This document shows, in pieces, positions 26,642 to 37,799 of a stretch of DNA of 51,416 bases. Under the pieces are notes generated by a model that was not told the DNA's origin, searched no databases, and saw only the letters and a program-made list of their open reading frames with translations. The position numbers and the translations under genes are program-made. Numbering within the stretch: position 1 is the stretch's first letter; the number at the start of each line of letters is the position of its first letter. Source of the stretch: a virus. The stretch spans positions 1-51,416 of IMG/VR virus record IMGVR_UViG_3300030012_001510; one strand, 5' to 3'.

Positions 26642-27373
26642 ATGTCAATGATAGCAGTAGCCGCGATTGGCGGTGGTTTAAAAATAGCAAGTGGTATCTT
26701 TGGATCTAGCGCCGCTAAAAGACGAGCTAGAGCCTTAGCTAGACAATTAAAAAAAGAAAACGCTAAGCTTAATAGGCTACAAAGCTCTAGACAGCAAATT
26801 GTAAATCCTTACAGCGGCGTTACAGATGTATCGGCATTAGCTAAAGATCTTTCTAGTAAAGTTTCTAATCCTTTCGCAAATTTAAGCGTAGCTACAAAAG
26901 CAGCTGAAATACAAATGGAGCAGTCTGATATTGCTTTAGCAAATACATTAGACACATTAAGAGCGACAGGCGCAGGCGCCGGTGGTGCTACCGCGTTAGC
27001 TCAAGCGGCTCTGCAAAGCAAACAACAAGTTGCTGCTAGTGTTGAAAGTCAAGAAGCTGAAAATGAAAAACTAAGAGCTCAAGGTCAACAACAAATGGAG
27101 CAACAGCAATTAGCTGACGCACAAAGAATACAAGGTATACAAATATCTGAAGCTGGTAGAACTCAACAATTAATAGGTATGGGTGAAAATATTAAAATGA
27201 CAATGAAAGAAAATAGAGAGCAAGATAATATAAACTACCAAAGAAATAAAATCGCAGCTTTAATGGGTGCTAAACAATCGGCTCAAAAAGCATCTTCTGA
27301 TGCAATGATGGGTGCAATTGGTGGATTAGGAGATTCAATGATGGGCATGGCGGCAGGAAAATTCGGAAGTTAA
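26642..27373 (+). CDS. Internal virion protein (T7 gp14-like role)
   Basis: 243 aa. N-terminal hydrophobic glycine-rich helix IAVAAIGGGLKIASGIFGSS, then a basic helix (AAKRRARALARQLKKENAKL), then Ala/Gln-rich helices (VAASVESQEAENEKLRAQGQ) and a Met/Gly-rich C-terminus (MMGAIGGLGDSMMGMAAGKF). This architecture, and its place directly upstream of two larger internal proteins, is like the small ejected core protein of podoviruses that inserts into the host outer membrane. Start follows the cupin stop by one base. Confidence 0.6.
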   Translation: MSMIAVAAIGGGLKIASGIFGSSAAKRRARALARQLKKENAKLNRLQSSRQQIVNPYSGVTDVSALAKDLSSKVSNPFANLSVATKAAEIQMEQSDIALANTLDTLRATGAGAGGATALAQAALQSKQQVAASVESQEAENEKLRAQGQQQMEQQQLADAQRIQGIQISEAGRTQQLIGMGENIKMTMKENREQDNINYQRNKIAALMGAKQSAQKASSDAMMGAIGGLGDSMMGMAAGKFGS

Positions 27374-27383
27374 GACATAACAC

Positions 27384-28484
27384 ATGGAAAATAAAAACAT
27401 ACAAAAAAATTTATACCTAAAACAGTTTAACAAAAGCAATGCTCTTGGTTTTAATAAAGAATTTATAGCTAATAATTATGACTTTAATTTTGACATATTA
27501 GGCAAGGCTTTTAGACCTACGGCTAAAACATATGCTAAGTTAATGTCAAATATTAATAATAATAAATGTGTTAATGGAGATTGTAAATATGAATACAGGC
27601 AATTAGAGCTTCTTAATCAAGCCCCACAAAATGCTCTTGATTTTTTAAGAGAACTTACATCTCAACTGGCTATAACTGAAGAATCAAATTTTGATCCTAA
27701 TAACAATTTTAAATACACTGTAGCTAATTCTATGATCACTACTAAGCCAGGTTTTTCTAAAGACAATGGTTACGATATTGCTTTGTATTTACTAGAAACA
27801 GGATCTTTTGAAATTATATTTACAGGACCAATGTTAGAAGAGCCTTTAGTTATAAATAATGTATCGCTATCAACTCTAGCAAAAGAAGGCACAAGCATTG
27901 TAACATCTACGCCAAATATAGAAAAATTAATGATGTCTATTATGCCTCAAACTGGTTTATTTGAAGGTAACTCAATACAGGAAAACGGAGAATTATCTCC
28001 TGTAGCTGTTATATCAGATGAGTTTGTTTTAAAAAATCCAGATGGTTCTTATGATTATGAAATAATAGACATAGGAGAAGGCAAAGGCAGAAACATACTT
28101 AAATTTGATTTAGATAAAATTACAAAAAAATCTATGCCTTTCATAAATGCTGAAGTAGCTGGTATATTATCAACAGAACAAGAAGCTGTTGCGCTTTGGA
28201 ATGTGTATTTAGCTAAACAAACAAGCGTAGAAGAAGACGCTCAAATGGTGCAAAATGCTAATGCAGCTAGTGAAAGTTGGAGTTATGAAGAAGATTTACC
28301 ATTATCACAAGATAAAAAAGTTTTATTTGAACAAAAATTTGTAGAATATTTTATGAATAACTATTTAAAACAATTCATTACAGATAGATTACCTACTGTT
28401 GAAGAAGATGCGGCTGTATTTGATTTATCAGAAGCAAGATCTGCTAAAGCACAAAAATTTTTACAAGATAATAAATTAAGTTAA
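27384..28484 (+). CDS. Probable internal virion protein (366 aa)
   Basis: 366 aa, acidic, mixed helical. Segments: QNALDFLRELTSQLAITEES (helical), EIIFTGPMLEEPLVINNVSL (beta), FEQKFVEYFMNNYLKQFITD. No motif recognised. It lies between the small internal protein and the 3,011-aa protein, i.e. in the place of the middle ejected-core protein of podovirus genomes. Function from context only. Confidence 0.5.
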   Translation: MENKNIQKNLYLKQFNKSNALGFNKEFIANNYDFNFDILGKAFRPTAKTYAKLMSNINNNKCVNGDCKYEYRQLELLNQAPQNALDFLRELTSQLAITEESNFDPNNNFKYTVANSMITTKPGFSKDNGYDIALYLLETGSFEIIFTGPMLEEPLVINNVSLSTLAKEGTSIVTSTPNIEKLMMSIMPQTGLFEGNSIQENGELSPVAVISDEFVLKNPDGSYDYEIIDIGEGKGRNILKFDLDKITKKSMPFINAEVAGILSTEQEAVALWNVYLAKQTSVEEDAQMVQNANAASESWSYEEDLPLSQDKKVLFEQKFVEYFMNNYLKQFITDRLPTVEEDAAVFDLSEARSAKAQKFLQDNKLS

Positions 28485-28489
28485 ATTAA

Positions 28490-31400
28490 ATGACAATAGA
28501 ACAAAAAACTATAGAACTTCAGTCTGTTAGTCCACCATTAACAAGAGATCAAATTATTGCTGAACTTGGCAAGTGGCAAGCAGAACAATCAATGCAAGAA
28601 ACTGAAGGTGTTTTAGCTGAAAAAGAAACACCCGAAGTTGTTGAAAAACAAGAACCAGTTGAAGAGAAAGTTGAAGAAAAAGAAGAGGTAATTGAAGAAG
28701 AGGGAAATCAGGAAGTTGTTGCGGACCAACAGGATGCAGCTGTAACAACTACACCGGACAATGCATCCGAGGAAGAAGATACGGAATCTCAGTCGGAAGA
28801 TGGTTCATCGGAATCACAAGAGCCTGAAGAAGAAGAAGAAGAAGAAGAGAGTTATGAAGTGGTTCGTCAAAGATTTTTTGACACTGTTGAAGGAATAAAA
28901 AATAGAACCGCAAGAATAAGTAAGATACAAAACTATTTACAAACAGAATTTAAAGACGTTAATAGTGAAGTAAATATACCTAATATTGGCGAAGAAATAC
29001 AAGGCAAAGGTGGTTTTACTTATAAATATACGGCTGATGTAGATGATGAAGGTAATTTAGATTTACAAGTTTTTTATAAAGGCAAAGATGACGAAGAATT
29101 TATAAATGCCACTGAAAGAGCTAGAAATAATCCTAATAGTGTAACGCTAAATAATCAAGAGGCATCTATACAATCAGCATTAGGTTTTTTATCTGAAGAT
29201 GTTGCAGATAATATATACAAACAAAGAAAAGCTCGTGAAGCAGCTTTAAAGCAACAACAACAACAACAGCCACAAGATTTTGATCCAAATAGAGAAGGCA
29301 TACAATCTTTTGATGATATGTTGCTTTATAATTATCAAGAGCAGAAGGTAATTGATGGAATGACTACTGCTGATAGAGAAGTTTATTTTTCTGAAAAAAA
29401 CCTACAAGCTTCTAAGTCTAATTTTAATGAAATTCTTAAATCAAATCCAGAATTAAAAAAATGGTTAGAAGAAAAGAAAAGTCAATTAGGAGAATATAAT
29501 ATAGAAAAAGCTAAAATACAACAAAAAATAGATGCTCTTCCTATGGGAGAGACTGGTAAACTAGCTGAATATAAAAAACAGCTTGAAGATTTAGAGGAAA
29601 AATTTAAAACAGTTAATTTAATTAAAGGCGAGTCTATGCGTTTGGCTTTAGACGAAGAGCTTAATGCTATGATGCCTAATATTATAACTAAAGCTAATGA
29701 AGCTACTGTTATTCAACCAGTTGAAGAGCCTTCTATGTTTAACATTGTTGGTAAAGTTTGGAGAGGGGCTGGGCAAAGAGCATTTAGTAGAGGCCAAGCT
29801 GCTATTTCAACTGTGGTGGGAGATATTTTAGATCCAGTAGATAAAGATCTTTTACAACAACAAGAGTTTTATAATCAAGCTAAGTTAGAATACGCTAAAA
29901 AAAATAAAGTAGATATAAATACAGTAACAGATGCTGATGTTGAAGATATTGTAAAAAATAAATATATACAACTTTTTACACAACAAGAAACTGATAAATT
30001 GTATAGAAACTACTCTGAAAGTTTAATAGAAGATTTGCCTTTAGCGATGCAACCTTTTGCAAGAGCTTTTGGTTTTAAAAATATAGCAGATCTTTTTGGA
30101 GATACAACTCAAGAGAAAAAAGAAAAATTAATAACAGCTGCTATAGATTTAGATTTAAAACAAGATATATTAAAACAAAATTTAGCTATACAAAAAGTAA
30201 CTGCTAATAATTTTAAATCTTTAGGTCTTGCTAATACTACTTATCAAACTCAAGAAGAAGCTGCAGAAGCCAGAGAACAATTAAGATTACTTAATTTAGA
30301 AACAAACGCTAATTTAGATATAATAAATAATATATTTGACACAGCTGCCGCTAAAGTAAATGACGCTAATAAGGCAACTATTTTTAATAACTATTATCAA
30401 AAAAATTACGGTTTTTTAACTGAAACAGGTGGTAGATTCGCAACGATGGGTCTAGATTTGTTTGTAAATGGTTTAGCAGAATACTCTGAAAGAATGGGTA
30501 TTAACGTAGCAAGTTTAGGTGTTATAGGTACTGCTGCTGAAGGACTATATAATAAGCTTACTGGTGAAGATTTAAGTAGAAAATTAACAAATAAGTTTAC
30601 AGGTGGGGTTGATTCTGTGGTAAATTATTTAAACGACCAAATGGCACCACCAACAACTCTTGATGACATTGAGTCAGGCATGGATATACTTAGATGGGCT
30701 GGTGGATCATTAGGTCAACAAATACCTATTTATGGAGCTATATATTTGTCGGGCGGAACATATGCACCAGTTGTAATTGGAGCAGCCGTTGCAGGTAGCA
30801 AGTTTAGAGAAATGCAAAAAGAAATAGACATGGGTACAGCTGACTATAACTGGTGGCAAATGTATACTATGGCTAATTTAAGTGGAGTTTCTGCTGCAGC
30901 TACAGAGTATGTAACACAAGGAATGCTTAGTAGATTAAAGTTTTCTTATCAAAATATACCGGGCTTCAAAGAAGGTTTTAGTGACACTATGAAAGGTTTT
31001 TTGTCCGCAGGCGGTAGATGGGCTAGAGACATGGGTGAAGAAATACCTAGTGAAATGCTAGATGAATTAATAAACAATATTGGTGACAAGTATGTCTTGG
31101 GTAAAAAAGATGTAAATCTTTTTGATAATTTGGGTGAAACTGCTTTAAGTACTCTTTGGACAGCTGGTGTAGCGATAAGAGCGCCGTTAATTGGTCAGCA
31201 AATAATAGCTCCTTTTAGAAGTAGACAATCATTTCAAATAATAGGAGAAGGCCAAGCTAGAATAAAAGAGTTGAATGAAACGTTAGAAAACAACAGAGAT
31301 TTAAGTGTTGATGCTGTAAATAAAATAAAAGATGAAATTAACTCTATAATTGTAAACAATGTTAAAGCCTTAAAAACAGACATTAGTAGATTAGATGATC

Positions 31401-34400
31401 TTACCGATAATGAAAAAAGAGTTTTATTAGATAATAAAGCTAAAGAATATGAAATAATAAGATCTATTAGAGATATTACAAATGATACTAGTTTAGATCA
31501 AAAAACTAAAGACAATTTAATAAGCTCTAAACAAAGTCAATTAAATGAAATATCTACTAATTCTTCAAAAATTTTAGCTCCATATATAATTGCAGAAAAC
31601 AAAGCTAAAAATGAGCCTATCATACAAGAGGCTATTGATAAAGTAGAACAAGTAACTAAAAAAGTTTTAGGTGAAAGTATAAACGTTATAGATGATATGA
31701 ATAACCTGCCAGAAGGTGTTCCTAAATTTGTTGATGCTTATGTAGATCCTAAAACTAATCAAATATATATAAACAAAGAGTGGGCAGCTACAGTTGGTGC
31801 GGTAACAGCTGCTGAGCACGAGTTGTTGCATAAAATACAAAAGTCTTTATTTGATACTAATCCTCAAAAAGCTGTTGAACTTGTAGAAGATTTTAAAAAT
31901 ACTTTAAGCAATAAAGAACTTAGATTAGTACAAGAAAGAATTGATGCTAATTACCGTTATGAAATGAACGATGATGGTAGTTTTGTATTAGACGATCAAG
32001 GTAATAAAATAGAAAAAGATCCTGCTACATATGCAGAAGAATATTTCAATGTTTTCTCTGATCTTGTAGGTAAAAATCAAATAGGTTTTACTGATAACTT
32101 AGGTGAAAATCTACTTAGATTTGTAAAGAAGTTAAAAGAATCTGTATTTGGACCAGCTGGTTTTAAGAATCTAGAATATCAAAGTGGTAGAGACGCGTAT
32201 AACTTTATAAAAGATTATAACAAAAGTATAAAAGAAGGTAAAGTGTCTGAAAGAGCAGAGGCTTTAATTAGAAAAGGTGCTTTAACAACTAGTGATAGAA
32301 CAACACGATCTATAACCACAAGAGGTCAAGAGTTTATAGATCTTTCAAGAGATGGAACTCTTACAAACGAAAACCTAGTTGATACTATTAATTCTGAATC
32401 TAGCAACCAAACAGATAAGTTTGCAGCTATAGAAGCTATTGTTGAGACTAACTGGCCTGTGATTAGCAAAGGACTTAAGTTTAATCCAACCGGTAGCATA
32501 CCAATGGATGCTGTTAAAACGGCGGTAACTGAGCAGATGCAAGGCATATTTCCAGGTAGAAACAAACCTTTACTAGCAGATTTTAATGCAGATACGGCTC
32601 AGCTTAATACTTATTTAGGATCTTTAATGAGTCAAAGACAAGGTGAAATACTTGAACGTGCTAAACAAATAGGGGGCACGCTGCAGGAAGGTACTAGCAT
32701 TGATTCTGAGGTAGCTAAACAAGTTGTAGATACTAGTAAAAAACAAACAACAACTAAACGTTCTAGAACGCCTAAAACACCAACCGAAACAGTTAAGTAT
32801 TCTAACACAATTATAGAAAAAGCAGGTGTTAAAGATAAAGGCGAGCTTGAAACTAAAATAACTGAAGCAACTACAGAGAGCTTTAAAGATGTAGATGTTG
32901 ATAGGTTTGGTCAAACAAAAGATGTACCACCAGCTGTAGCTAAAATATATGGTGACATGCTTGGTTTAAATCCTGAAACAATTAGTGATAAAACTAGAAC
33001 ATATCAAAACTACGATGAAGCTGGTTTAAACGCTGCTCAAAGATTTTTGTTAGCTAATGCAGCTAGTGATTATGCAAGGCTGCCTAAAACTAAAGATGAG
33101 ACCACTACTCGTGGTAGAGGTACTTTCATACCTAAAAATATGAAAGATGCTTTATATACTGATGGTAAACTCACAGGTACACTAAAAGATTATATGGATC
33201 TTCTTAGAAGTAAGCCTACAGGTAAGTTATATAGAGATAGTAAATATGCTCAACTAATACGAGGTTTATTAAATACTCATATTAGAAACCGTATGTTTGA
33301 AACCTTAGTACCTACAACACCTCAGCGATTACGTGGTGGCGCTAAGTTTAGTATTACGCAGGCACAGAGACCTGGTGTATACACAGCTACTTTAGGTGAG
33401 CAAGGTGTTAAAGTAATGAGAACAGCTGCTGAAAAGTTTGCTAAAGACAATAATATAAAAGTTGAATTTGAAGGTAAAGAATTAACAGTAAATAACTTTA
33501 ATGCGTCAAATCCTAAAGCTGTAGAATATTTAAAAAGAAATATAGAAAACGAACTTTGGAAGCACGTTCCACTAGAATCTTTAACTAGAGGAACTATGGT
33601 AGATTATAGTTCTAAAGGCAATGCTATATTTTTTGACAAAACACAATTTGGGAAAATATTAGACAACGCTTATAGTAATAGAGAAAAATGGTTAGCTGAG
33701 GGTAATACTCTTTCATACGATCAAGCAGAGTTAAAACAAAGCATTAAAGTAGCGTTTGGAACTAAATCTCCGTCTTTAGTAACTGGAAATTATGCTAAAG
33801 AAAGTGCTAAAAGAAAAGTAGATGCAAATGCTAAAGGTGTTAAGATTATATTGCAAGGCGGTGCAAACGCTATAAAAGCAGACCCAGCTAATTATTTGCC
33901 GTTGCTTACTATTTACGGAACACAATCAGTTTCTTCTTCTCATTTAGTTAGAAACATGGCTGTTGACGTAGGTCTTAGTGAAGAATACATAAAAGCTAAA
34001 CGCTTAAAAGATAACAAAGCAACAGTAAAAGAGCATGTTTATCCTTCTAATGATATGTCTTCATTAATGTATACATCTCAATTGTATAATGATGTAAATA
34101 ATATAATGCCTATTGTTAAAAAAGCTTATTTTCAGCTAGGTATAACAACAATACAAGATAATAAATTAATAAACACTGACGGTAAGGATGGTGATACATA
34201 TAATTATAAAGAAACTCAAACACAGCTTTTTTATGATGGTTTAAAAGAGTATTTTAAAACTGGTGATGTAAGTAAAATAAAAAATCCATTAATTAGATAT
34301 TTTAATCCTCAAGTAAACAGAAATAATAGCGGAGACAATATACAAGGTATTAACAGTAATACTTTAGAGATAATGGGTAAAACCGTAGCTGAAACCTATA

Positions 34401-37400
34401 CGCGTCAATTACCTAAATCAGATCAAAACTCTAATAATATATATGTTCAAAACGAACTTACATATCAGGTTTTGACTGGTGAAATAACTCAAGCAGAAGC
34501 AGTTAAAAGACTTGATGCACAGATCGGCTCTGGTAATGCTAAAGTAAAACCTAGTATTACAAATAACAACATGCAACCTAATAGCCTGAAGTTTAGTGAT
34601 AAAGCCGCTGGTAACAGCGTGCTTGTTACTGACGAGCTAAACACTCTTGACAAGGCTTTAGCTGAAGGTAGAAAAGTAGATAAACCTGTTAAGAAAATAA
34701 GAGTATTTGATTTTGATGATACATTAGCTAAATCTAATAGTAAAGTTATTGTTATAAATCCTTTATCTAGCATTGATAGTGATATGCTTGATATTGTAGC
34801 TAGAAGAAAATTTAAAAAAGAATTTGAAAATCTACCAAGCTTTAAACAAAACTTTAACAGCTTAAATGAGCAGCAAAAACTAGAAGTTTTAAAAGAAGTA
34901 CCAGGTGGAACTAAAGAAATAAACGCAACTCAATTTGCTGAACAAGCTGCCAGACTTGAAGAGCAAGGTGCTACTTTTGATTTTAGTCAATTTGAACAAG
35001 TTATTGATGGTAAAAAAGGTCCATTATTTGACGTTGCTAAAAAAATAGCAGAAACAAGAGGCACTGAAGATTTATTTATATTAACCGCCAGACCACAAAG
35101 CGCAGCTGGTCCTATAAAGGCTTTTATGAAAGCTTTAGGTATTAATATACCTTTGGGAAATATAACTGGTTTAAGTGATGGCACTGCTGGTGCTAAAGGT
35201 AGATGGATTGCTGGCAAAGCAGCTGAGGGTTATAATGATTTTTATTTTGCAGATGATTCTACTGCAAACGTAAAAGCAGTTAAAGATGTATTAGATCAAA
35301 TAGATGTCAAGTCTAGAGTGCAGCAAGCTAAGTTTAGTAAGTCAGCTACATTTAATACTATAGTAAATCAAATGATTGAAGACTCTTCAGGTATTGAATC
35401 ATTCAAAACTTTTTCTGCTGCTAAAGCTAAAACAATAGGTAAAGATAAAGGGAGATTTGATTGGTTAACATTAGCTTCATCAGCTGAAGATTTCAAAGGT
35501 TTATTGTATAGCTTGATAGGTAACGGTAAAAAAGGTGAAGCTCAATATGAGTTCTTAAAAACAAATCTTATTGATACATATAACAAAGCTGAAGATTCTA
35601 TAACTCAAGCTAAAATAGCTGCAGCTAATGACTTTATGGCTTTAAAAGAGCAGTTTCCAGGTTTACCTAAAACATTAGAAACAGAAACAGGTGTTGGTAA
35701 ATTCACATATCAGCACGCGCTTCGTACTTACATGTGGACTCAGCAAGGCATGTCTATACCTGGGCTTTCAAAAGCAGACGCAAGAAAACTTAATAAGTTT
35801 ATAACTGATGATGCTAAGCTTCAAGCTTTTGCAGATCAATTAATGTCAATACAAAAAGGTAAACCATATCCTAAGCCAGGCAAAGATTGGTTAGGTGGTA
35901 ATTTAACTACGGATATTATTGGTGGTATAAACAAAGTAAACAGAACAGAGTATCAACAAGAGTTCAGAGAAAATGTAGATATTATATTTTCAAAAGAAAA
36001 TTTAAACAAAATGGAAGCTGCCTACGGAACTCGTTGGCGTAGAGCTTTAGAGAATACATTAACTAGAATGAAAGCGGGTACAAACAGACTTGGTTACAAT
36101 GATCAAACAAGTGCTGTGCTTGACTGGGTTAATAACTCTGTTGGTGCGGTAATGTTCTTAAATACTAGATCTGCACTGCTTCAAACAATTTCTGCTGTAA
36201 ACTTTATAAATTGGGGTGATAATAATATTATAGCCGCAGGTAAAGCGTTTGCAAACCAAAAACAATTTTGGGGAGATTTTATGACGCTTATGAACTCTGA
36301 CTACTTAACACAGCGGCGTAATGGTCTCAAAATAAACGTAAGTGAATCTGAAATAGCAGATGCTGTTAAAGATTCTAAGAACAAAGTTAAATCTGCTATA
36401 GCATTTTTATTAAGTAAAGGCTTTGTACTTACAAGATACGCCGATAGTTTTGCAATAGCTTCTGGTGGTGCTACATTTTATAGAAATAGACTTAATAAAT
36501 ATATTAAAGAAGGAATGAGTCAAGAACTAGCTACAGAAAAAGCTTTTCAAGACTTTAGATTAATTGCAGAAGAAAGTCAACAGTCTAGTTCGCCGGATAA
36601 AATTAGTATGCAGCAAGCTTCAGCCGCTGGTCGTGTTATACTTAACTGGGCTAATACACCAATGCAGTATGTTAGAATACAAAAAAGATCAATACAAGAT
36701 CTTATTGCTGGTAGAGGCGACGCTAAAACACATATATCAAGAATAGCATATTACGGTGTTATGCAAAACTTAATATTCAATGCTTTACAACAAGCGCTGT
36801 TCGCTATAGGTTTTGGTGATGATGAAGACGACGAAGAAAAAAGCGCGGCTAAAAAGAAACAAGATGACAAGAAAATAGCTAGAGTTGCAAACGGTATGAT
36901 TGATTCTCAATTAAAAGGCTTAGGTATTGCAGGTATGGCTATGGTTGCTGCTAAAAATTCTTTAATGAAAATATATGAAGAGTCTGGTAAGAAGAGACCT
37001 GAGTATGAAAAAGCAGCTATAGAGGCTCTTAGTTTTTCACCAGCTATAAGTTCTAAATATAGAAAAATAGTAGGTGGTTTAAAAAGCTTTAGCTGGAACA
37101 TGAAAGAAATAAAACAAAAAGGTTTTAGTCTTGACAACCCAGCTTATTTAGCAGGTGCTCAAATTATAACAGCTACAACAAATATACCTATTGATCGTGT
37201 TATTAAAAAAGCTAATAATATAAGAGGTATAATGAGTGAGCAATCGCAAATGTGGCAAAAAGTTTCTATGGCACTAGGCTGGTCTTCTTATGACGTTGGT
37301 TTACCATACTATGGTGGTTGGGATAAACCAGTTGAACCTACAGAGGCAGAGCGCAAAAAACAAGAGATTGATATCATGAAGCGTGATACTAATACAGCTG

Positions 37401-37525
37401 AGCAAACACAGATGCTATTAGATCTAGGTCTTGACAAAAAACAAATTAAAGCATTGCGTTATGAAGACGCTAGAGTTAAAAAAATAATTGAACTACAAAA
37501 TAAAAAGAAAAAAGATGCCAAATAA
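28490..37525 (+). CDS. Giant polyvalent internal virion protein (3,011 aa) with HELLH and HAD-type motifs
   Basis: 3,011 aa, 17% of the window. Domains in order: an acidic Glu-rich disordered start (about 20-130, with GC-rich bases 28,680-28,860); coiled-coil and helical segments to about 550; Gly/Ala hydrophobic stretches near 730-800 (GQQIPIYGAIYLSGGTYAPV); a zinc-protease-like AAEHELLHKI with H1110-E-L-L-H1114; a HAD-type phosphatase region at about 2,070-2,270 with IRVFDFDDTLA (D2074, D2076), ILTARP and YFADDSTANV; then a long helical C-terminus with small hydrophobic stretches. Such giant proteins are usually packaged and ejected with the DNA. Role of the enzyme-like domains is unknown. 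No RNA-polymerase motif seen. Confidence 0.7.
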   Translation: MTIEQKTIELQSVSPPLTRDQIIAELGKWQAEQSMQETEGVLAEKETPEVVEKQEPVEEKVEEKEEVIEEEGNQEVVADQQDAAVTTTPDNASEEEDTESQSEDGSSESQEPEEEEEEEESYEVVRQRFFDTVEGIKNRTARISKIQNYLQTEFKDVNSEVNIPNIGEEIQGKGGFTYKYTADVDDEGNLDLQVFYKGKDDEEFINATERARNNPNSVTLNNQEASIQSALGFLSEDVADNIYKQRKAREAALKQQQQQQPQDFDPNREGIQSFDDMLLYNYQEQKVIDGMTTADREVYFSEKNLQASKSNFNEILKSNPELKKWLEEKKSQLGEYNIEKAKIQQKIDALPMGETGKLAEYKKQLEDLEEKFKTVNLIKGESMRLALDEELNAMMPNIITKANEATVIQPVEEPSMFNIVGKVWRGAGQRAFSRGQAAISTVVGDILDPVDKDLLQQQEFYNQAKLEYAKKNKVDINTVTDADVEDIVKNKYIQLFTQQETDKLYRNYSESLIEDLPLAMQPFARAFGFKNIADLFGDTTQEKKEKLITAAIDLDLKQDILKQNLAIQKVTANNFKSLGLANTTYQTQEEAAEAREQLRLLNLETNANLDIINNIFDTAAAKVNDANKATIFNNYYQKNYGFLTETGGRFATMGLDLFVNGLAEYSERMGINVASLGVIGTAAEGLYNKLTGEDLSRKLTNKFTGGVDSVVNYLNDQMAPPTTLDDIESGMDILRWAGGSLGQQIPIYGAIYLSGGTYAPVVIGAAVAGSKFREMQKEIDMGTADYNWWQMYTMANLSGVSAAATEYVTQGMLSRLKFSYQNIPGFKEGFSDTMKGFLSAGGRWARDMGEEIPSEMLDELINNIGDKYVLGKKDVNLFDNLGETALSTLWTAGVAIRAPLIGQQIIAPFRSRQSFQIIGEGQARIKELNETLENNRDLSVDAVNKIKDEINSIIVNNVKALKTDISRLDDLTDNEKRVLLDNKAKEYEIIRSIRDITNDTSLDQKTKDNLISSKQSQLNEISTNSSKILAPYIIAENKAKNEPIIQEAIDKVEQVTKKVLGESINVIDDMNNLPEGVPKFVDAYVDPKTNQIYINKEWAATVGAVTAAEHELLHKIQKSLFDTNPQKAVELVEDFKNTLSNKELRLVQERIDANYRYEMNDDGSFVLDDQGNKIEKDPATYAEEYFNVFSDLVGKNQIGFTDNLGENLLRFVKKLKESVFGPAGFKNLEYQSGRDAYNFIKDYNKSIKEGKVSERAEALIRKGALTTSDRTTRSITTRGQEFIDLSRDGTLTNENLVDTINSESSNQTDKFAAIEAIVETNWPVISKGLKFNPTGSIPMDAVKTAVTEQMQGIFPGRNKPLLADFNADTAQLNTYLGSLMSQRQGEILERAKQIGGTLQEGTSIDSEVAKQVVDTSKKQTTTKRSRTPKTPTETVKYSNTIIEKAGVKDKGELETKITEATTESFKDVDVDRFGQTKDVPPAVAKIYGDMLGLNPETISDKTRTYQNYDEAGLNAAQRFLLANAASDYARLPKTKDETTTRGRGTFIPKNMKDALYTDGKLTGTLKDYMDLLRSKPTGKLYRDSKYAQLIRGLLNTHIRNRMFETLVPTTPQRLRGGAKFSITQAQRPGVYTATLGEQGVKVMRTAAEKFAKDNNIKVEFEGKELTVNNFNASNPKAVEYLKRNIENELWKHVPLESLTRGTMVDYSSKGNAIFFDKTQFGKILDNAYSNREKWLAEGNTLSYDQAELKQSIKVAFGTKSPSLVTGNYAKESAKRKVDANAKGVKIILQGGANAIKADPANYLPLLTIYGTQSVSSSHLVRNMAVDVGLSEEYIKAKRLKDNKATVKEHVYPSNDMSSLMYTSQLYNDVNNIMPIVKKAYFQLGITTIQDNKLINTDGKDGDTYNYKETQTQLFYDGLKEYFKTGDVSKIKNPLIRYFNPQVNRNNSGDNIQGINSNTLEIMGKTVAETYTRQLPKSDQNSNNIYVQNELTYQVLTGEITQAEAVKRLDAQIGSGNAKVKPSITNNNMQPNSLKFSDKAAGNSVLVTDELNTLDKALAEGRKVDKPVKKIRVFDFDDTLAKSNSKVIVINPLSSIDSDMLDIVARRKFKKEFENLPSFKQNFNSLNEQQKLEVLKEVPGGTKEINATQFAEQAARLEEQGATFDFSQFEQVIDGKKGPLFDVAKKIAETRGTEDLFILTARPQSAAGPIKAFMKALGINIPLGNITGLSDGTAGAKGRWIAGKAAEGYNDFYFADDSTANVKAVKDVLDQIDVKSRVQQAKFSKSATFNTIVNQMIEDSSGIESFKTFSAAKAKTIGKDKGRFDWLTLASSAEDFKGLLYSLIGNGKKGEAQYEFLKTNLIDTYNKAEDSITQAKIAAANDFMALKEQFPGLPKTLETETGVGKFTYQHALRTYMWTQQGMSIPGLSKADARKLNKFITDDAKLQAFADQLMSIQKGKPYPKPGKDWLGGNLTTDIIGGINKVNRTEYQQEFRENVDIIFSKENLNKMEAAYGTRWRRALENTLTRMKAGTNRLGYNDQTSAVLDWVNNSVGAVMFLNTRSALLQTISAVNFINWGDNNIIAAGKAFANQKQFWGDFMTLMNSDYLTQRRNGLKINVSESEIADAVKDSKNKVKSAIAFLLSKGFVLTRYADSFAIASGGATFYRNRLNKYIKEGMSQELATEKAFQDFRLIAEESQQSSSPDKISMQQASAAGRVILNWANTPMQYVRIQKRSIQDLIAGRGDAKTHISRIAYYGVMQNLIFNALQQALFAIGFGDDEDDEEKSAAKKKQDDKKIARVANGMIDSQLKGLGIAGMAMVAAKNSLMKIYEESGKKRPEYEKAAIEALSFSPAISSKYRKIVGGLKSFSWNMKEIKQKGFSLDNPAYLAGAQIITATTNIPIDRVIKKANNIRGIMSEQSQMWQKVSMALGWSSYDVGLPYYGGWDKPVEPTEAERKKQEIDIMKRDTNTAEQTQMLLDLGLDKKQIKALRYEDARVKKIIELQNKKKKDAK

Positions 37526-37799
37526 AAACAAAAAACCTAAAAAAGCAAGTAAGCCTAGACCTGAAGATCCAAATTATTTCAGAGAAGTAGAACTTCCAAG
37601 AAGAACTCGCGAGGAAATAAATAAAAAAGCTTCAGGTATAAACATGGGATCACCATTATACGGTAAAATAAGTTCAGCTTGTAAAGCTGCAGCAAAAAGA
37701 AAATTTAAAGTTTGGCCTAGCGCTTACGCTTCAGGTTGGGGCGTAAGATGTACTAAAGCCGGTGGGCCAAGTAATTTTGGAGGTAAAAATAAAAAGTAA
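37515..37799 (+). CDS. Small basic SP-motif protein
   Basis: 94 aa from ATG 37515 (11-base overlap with the giant gene; a TTG farther upstream is unlikely). Strongly basic; contains MGSPLYG and then ACKAAAKRKFKVWPSAYASG-WGVRC, a conserved-looking module with two Cys and Trp. Ends GG...FGGKNKK. TAATG coupling to the next gene. A module of this type occurs in many small phage proteins; function unknown. Confidence 0.65.
   Translation: MPNKNKKPKKASKPRPEDPNYFREVELPRRTREEINKKASGINMGSPLYGKISSACKAAAKRKFKVWPSAYASGWGVRCTKAGGPSNFGGKNKK

Follow-up and report, generated by a model that had tools for sequence, protein, structure and literature searches.

The 51,416-bp contig of a virus record analyzed here (the window) carries a giant marine phage gene whose product is probably a polyvalent, virion-carried ejection protein. 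This protein unites functionally different domains in a single chain, namely a predicted zincin, a sigma-like segment and a HAD domain (Table 1). Such a reading is favored because both active sites are conserved, a HAD fold is predicted and a sigma-like profile is recovered; because gene order, the structural annotation of homologs, the exchange of cassettes and a published precedent (PMC5512222) point in the same direction; and because the zincin profile aligns with N4 and elemo proteins. The domains, their conserved catalytic residues, the gene order and the exchange of the front cassette were observed by computation, and from them we infer the packaging, ejection, activities and substrates of the protein. 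An initial annotation of this DNA had already described a HELLH motif and a HAD set (DFDDTLA, ILTARP and FADDSTANV) in one gene, and both are indeed present in the 3,011-aa ORF; the sigma-like domain and the exchange of the front cassette are absent from that description.

Table 1. Features of the giant gene and its upstream neighbors (window coordinates; res, residues of the giant protein)
Feature	Coordinates	Strand	Basis or remark
243-aa protein, two genes upstream of the giant gene	26642..27373	+	homolog of phi38:1 gp099 (hhalign P 95.5%)
366-aa protein, next to the giant gene on its upstream side; conserved partner	27384..28484	+	39 related loci; upstream in 63/90 loci
Giant ORF	28490..37525	+	3,011 aa, translation without internal stops
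Sole strong hydrophobic stretch, res 749-769	30734..30796	+	Kyte-Doolittle scan
Predicted zincin-type metallopeptidase segment, res 1040-1275	31607..32314	+	HExxH and E1184 invariant in 69 relatives; model pLDDT 89.9
HELLH, res 1110-1114	31817..31831	+	translation
E1184, candidate third zinc ligand	32039..32041	+	invariant among relatives
Sigma-70 region-2-like segment, res 1304-1423	32399..32758	+	family HMM built without the window, E 2.6e-7
Conserved middle domain, res 1440-1640	32807..33409	+	alignment; function not assigned
HAD phosphatase domain (predicted), res 2045-2315	34622..35435	+	motif conservation, model, Foldseek; insert between motifs I and II
Residue 2050, shared-block edge against L047 (cassette border)	34637..34639	+	DNA similarity starts at 34638
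HAD motif I, D2074-x-D2076-x-T2078 (DFDDTLA)	34709..34723	+	invariant
C-terminal conserved region, res 2328-2938	35471..37303	+	41% identity to L002; most conserved part of the family

At the genome level, the large terminase and the portal of the contig are of podovirus type (PHROGs 6681 and 6547). The nearest terminase is that of phage MW202828 (62%), those of Elemovirus phages reach 44%, and Cellulophaga and Tenacibaculum phages were also found by the same search. The giant gene is the final gene of the structural block, behind the tail genes, in a locus with a small, medium and giant gene order. The small member of this trio is related to gp099 of phi38:1, a virion structural protein, and its equivalence to N4 gp51 or gp52 was rejected on comparison. 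The positional counterparts of the giant gene, phi38:1 gp101 and Gundel_1 gp74, are annotated as structural, with labels that derive partly from similarity. When the immediate upstream neighbor served as query, 39 loci were recovered, and the giant ORF lies just downstream in those where the sequence suffices, with 2,280-3,289 aa when complete. At two loci (L008:11107-20090 and L043:11107-19926) the giant ORF is broken into two or three frames, which reflects either sequencing error or a real split. Ejected cargo proteins have been described for T7, N4 and crAss001 (PMC10172136), and by analogy the giant protein is probably an ejected virion protein as well. The initial annotation had proposed the same, and the position of the gene, the upstream gp099 homolog and the structural counterparts fit this proposal; ejection itself is what we infer.

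Known giant virion proteins offer partial parallels. The N4 virion RNA polymerase gp50 is also a giant protein encoded beside small and mid-size virion genes, but neither an RNA polymerase nor C-terminal similarity is detectable in the window protein. An N4-like polymerase identity was discarded, since blastp with N4 gp50 yields noise only and no T7-like RNA polymerase domain appears, and a correspondence between both C-termini was likewise rejected (P 4%). The giants of Pachyviridae and Pervagoviridae (Gundel_1 gp74 and phi38:1 gp101) and the Elemovirus giant share the genome position, and the C-terminus of Gundel_1 gp74 is related to that of the giant protein (P 89%), whereas the isolates of these groups have no match to its HAD. 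The C-terminal conserved region is the probable packaging and ejection anchor.

The giant protein contains eight histidines in all, and its composition gives a chance expectation of 0.0016 for HExxH. Across 69 zincin segments with a mean column identity of 19%, the only invariant columns are H1110, E1111, H1114 and E1184, and the spacing from the HExxH histidine to the glutamate ranges from 51 to 82 residues. Judged from sequence, this set constitutes a gluzincin-type signature. The AlphaFold model (pLDDT 89.9) comprises an N-terminal helix, three strands, the HExxH helix and the Glu helix, with helices at model positions 68-82 and 139-155. A Foldseek comparison of this model with the PDB gave no convincing match (best E 0.6); the zincin fold is thus unconfirmed, and the metallopeptidase is predicted from the invariant signature. 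Single-sequence searches of Pfam, PHROGs and NCBIfam made no significant zincin call, and a PDB sequence search with the zincin profile gave nothing convincing. In profile comparisons, the zincin profile aligns with the metallopeptidase of the N4 virion RNA polymerase (hhalign P 92%, falling to 1.8% once HExxH is masked), with the elemo structural protein (P 96%) and with Gundel (P 87%). Nothing favors the earlier suggestion that the protease clears a periplasmic path; the framework of polyvalent proteins favors self-processing or host-protein targets (PMC5512222).

Some relatives depart from the common arrangement of this segment. The motif is HEKAGH at residue 1182 of L022, an HEXXXH variant known from polyvalent proteins, and the 3,859-aa protein of MW202828 (L003:741-12320) bears two HEFGH sites under the label 'reticulocyte binding/rhoptry protein', which looks wrong. 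The 3,694-aa structural protein of elemoB_14-3B (L136:798-11882) has a zincin (HEIFH) together with a DUF3293 domain. Three shorter giant proteins of about 2,300 aa (L015, L016 and L044) have the HAD and the sigma-like segment without HExxH.

Between the zincin and the middle domain lies the sigma-like segment. A profile of these segments from 20 relatives, built with the window excluded, was compared with the PDB, where 59 of 60 matches are sigma-70 factors, with sigma-K (5.5e-5) as the best and RpoS at 5e-4; these matches cover region 1.2/2. Window residues 1308-1423 are in turn matched by the window-free family HMM at E 2.6e-7. After iteration, the HMM detected the segment in 67 of 94 giant proteins, and no reversed decoy was matched in the last round. 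Sigma factors came first once more (7.7e-4) with a profile of 42 sequences that had the window at its head, and a profile built from the window-like subclade alone found none. The link from the window segment to the family profile is solid and that from the family profile to sigma factors moderate; the putative sigma identity of the window segment itself is indirect. As in sigma-70 factors, the profile match falls on region 1.2/2; unlike them, the window segment is embedded in a giant protein, and no match to Sigma70_r4 (region 4) was obtained in Pfam scans.

The HAD domain displays motifs I (DxDxT), II (T/S), III (K) and IV (DD), with DFDDTLA followed by ILTARP (T2199) and then by FYFADDSTANV (D2255 and D2256). 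Because DxDxT alone would be expected 0.84 times by chance in a protein of this composition, the assignment as a HAD depends on all the motifs together and on how well they are conserved: D2074, D2076, T2078, K2236, D2255 and D2256 do not vary among 55 relatives, and T2199 is almost invariant. The catalytic residues singled out by the initial annotation are thus kept in homologs at both sites. Pfam on the single protein gives a sub-threshold HAD match only (E 0.087), single-sequence PHROGs and NCBIfam searches made no significant call, and a PDB sequence search with the HAD profile found nothing convincing. The AlphaFold segment (pLDDT 86.4) has phosphoserine phosphatase as its best Foldseek match (probability 0.99, E 5e-3), also retrieves Ceg4, Lem4 and e(P4), and nearly all of its top 12 matches are HAD phosphatases, with low overall TM-scores. 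The predicted fold of this segment hence matches HAD phosphatases. Of the two folds suggested initially, structure prediction by segments recovered the HAD one, with HAD phosphatases on top, and left the zincin model without a PDB counterpart.

The distance between motifs I and II in the kept loci falls into three classes of about 70-89, about 120-129 (the window) and about 280 residues, and the longest class contains a complete P-loop kinase. This nested kinase occurs in 8 of 66 non-redundant giant relatives; the window protein is without a P-loop kinase domain. Inside the HAD of L022 (a contig shared with L066:7638-8219), residues 2153-2350 match AAA_33 at E 1.8e-14, and the same nesting is seen in L078, L079, L080, L084, L086, L089, L090, L092 and L111. 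The nearest PDB match of the kinase is the Clostridium thermocellum Pnkp kinase (E 2e-4), in an entry listed as 'Metallophosphoesterase' that we take to be Pnkp. Its closest relatives from isolated phages include standalone genes of the marine phages HTVC008M and Melnitz; in these and in Atu_ph07 the kinase relatives are not joined to the giant-protein HAD, which has no match in the isolated-phage collection. The idea of the HAD as an optional insert proved wrong, as L009, L034 and L038, seemingly devoid of it, keep DxDxT variants, and it is truly absent only in L002 and distant isolates.

The HAD, with the nested kinase of the relatives, may be a PNKP-like end-repair enzyme delivered against damage by host nucleases, an option that we consider rather unlikely. 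Phage Pnk-HAD fusions function in RNA repair (PMC7824862), which agrees with this possibility, as do the Pnkp match and the first rank of bacter_Pnkp in NCBIfam. However, the models for shikimate and tRNA(Sec) kinases come close in score, the window has no kinase, and its HAD-IB/phosphoserine-phosphatase-like fold with the motif I-II insert fits small substrates. The T4 and bacterial polynucleotide kinase-phosphatases combine kinase and HAD in one chain as the kinase-bearing relatives do, but in the latter the kinase sits inside the HAD, which apparently belongs to another subclass. An insert at this cap position is commoner in small-molecule phosphatases. The initial proposal of a phosphatase acting on nucleic-acid ends accordingly keeps the nested kinase as a hint in its favor and the cap-position insert against it.

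A search with the HAD profile gathered at least 584 viral loci, 80 of which were kept. Among the 66 non-redundant giant ORFs, HExxH is present in 62 and DFDDT in 64; those with both HExxH and the HAD mostly measure 2,300-3,400 aa, and roughly 500-1,250 residues separate HExxH from the HAD downstream of it. Bacterial and archaeal genome bins gave 15 matches, most of them in similar ORFs broken off at contig ends. Contigs that carry the giant phage gene are found in the Woesearchaeota bin RS366 (L141, L144 and L145) and in an Aliivibrio bin (L138-L140); these are probably mis-binned phage contigs.

Hundreds of related, uncultured phages retain the domain layout of the giant protein but trade its front, zincin included, in the form of cassettes, while the HAD and the C-terminus stay about 90% identical. 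In 93 pairs with C-termini 88-99% identical, the HAD has a median identity of 87% and the zincin one of 30%; the value falls to 4% over the 500 residues that precede the zincin and is 12% at the N-terminus. At the DNA level, L048 and L051 are 93% identical as far as the opening codons of the giant gene, then unrelated for 4.3 kb except for one common 494-bp middle block, and 90% identical again from the HAD onward. Between the window and L047, similarity within the gene is confined to 34638-37541 plus the first few codons. This pattern could mean that the zincin is an effector acting on host proteins, with diversity and cassette exchange driven by an arms race with the host: the zincin region is less than 40% identical in 68% of the pairs, and L048 and L051 diverge from the start codon to the HAD, bar the middle block. 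Nevertheless, the whole front is exchanged along with the zincin, so selection need not target the zincin, and we regard this explanation as possible but doubtful.

The zincin might instead be a maturation protease for the giant or other head proteins at assembly, with the HAD and the sigma-like segment as passive or relict parts. In phage P1, processing of DdrB precedes its packaging (PMC5512222), and [KR]FS tripeptides at domain borders (window residues 1619, 2034 and 2281) are enriched in giant ORFs (155 observed against 86 expected; 47 against 42 in other ORFs). Immediately ahead of the HAD, the broader [KR][FY]S motif, present at borders in the window and in relatives, has about 4.5 times the density seen in other upstream parts. 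This candidate processing or linker motif is taken as a lead only, because other homologous tripeptides are also enriched. The invariance of the HAD motifs across 55 relatives argues against a relict, and the zincin is the exchanged rather than the constant part, all of which makes a maturation protease improbable. A purely structural protein with vestiges of a domesticated enzyme, suggested by the structural-only annotation of homologs, is highly improbable given that the most constant positions are the catalytic residues.

The reading as a polyvalent ejection protein finds its closest model in the polyvalent proteins surveyed by Iyer et al. (2017; PMC5512222), which are very large multidomain phage proteins with mosaic domains and include zincins with a Glu-bearing helix after the HExxH helix, an arrangement that the model of the giant-protein zincin segment matches. 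That survey sets a published precedent for injected multidomain phage proteins with zincins; its main text mentions neither a HAD with or without a nested kinase nor a sigma-like domain, and the terms phosphatase, haloacid and sigma do not occur in it (PMC5512222). These three domains hence appear to be additions to the polyvalent kind. By analogy, the giant protein may work like a polyvalent injected protein, with the named accessory domain absent; Pfam scans detected none of the polyvalent-associated domains (LPD, ART, etc.).

According to this model of an ejected polyvalent protein, the giant protein would be packaged together with its two smaller partners by means of its conserved C-terminal region, which would also serve in ejection, and would exit the particle before or with the DNA. 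Once in the cell, the zincin may cut the giant polypeptide into working units or cleave host proteins, the sigma-region-2-like segment may contact host RNA polymerase, and the HAD may remove phosphate from a nucleic-acid end or from a small phosphorylated metabolite, with the nested Pnk-type kinase of some relatives favoring end repair. Taken together, a virion-delivered sigma-70-region-2 domain, a HAD (with nested kinase in some relatives) and exchangeable protease cassettes would form a transcription-takeover and nucleic-acid-repair kit, a proposal that we put forward tentatively and think unlikely to hold.

The early action of tailed phages, before any expression of their genes, is largely unknown beyond a few models, among them T7, N4, P1 and T4. 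The family described above, with at least 584 viral loci, combines three predicted activities and a constant C-terminus with shuffled front modules, and offers testable residues in H1110, E1111, E1184, D2074 and D2255/D2256. Its product resembles a prepared set of tools for the opening minutes of infection. The giant family thereby supplies a candidate injected sigma-like factor and, if the proposal is true, the sigma-70-region-2 domain would commandeer host RNA polymerase as soon as infection begins.
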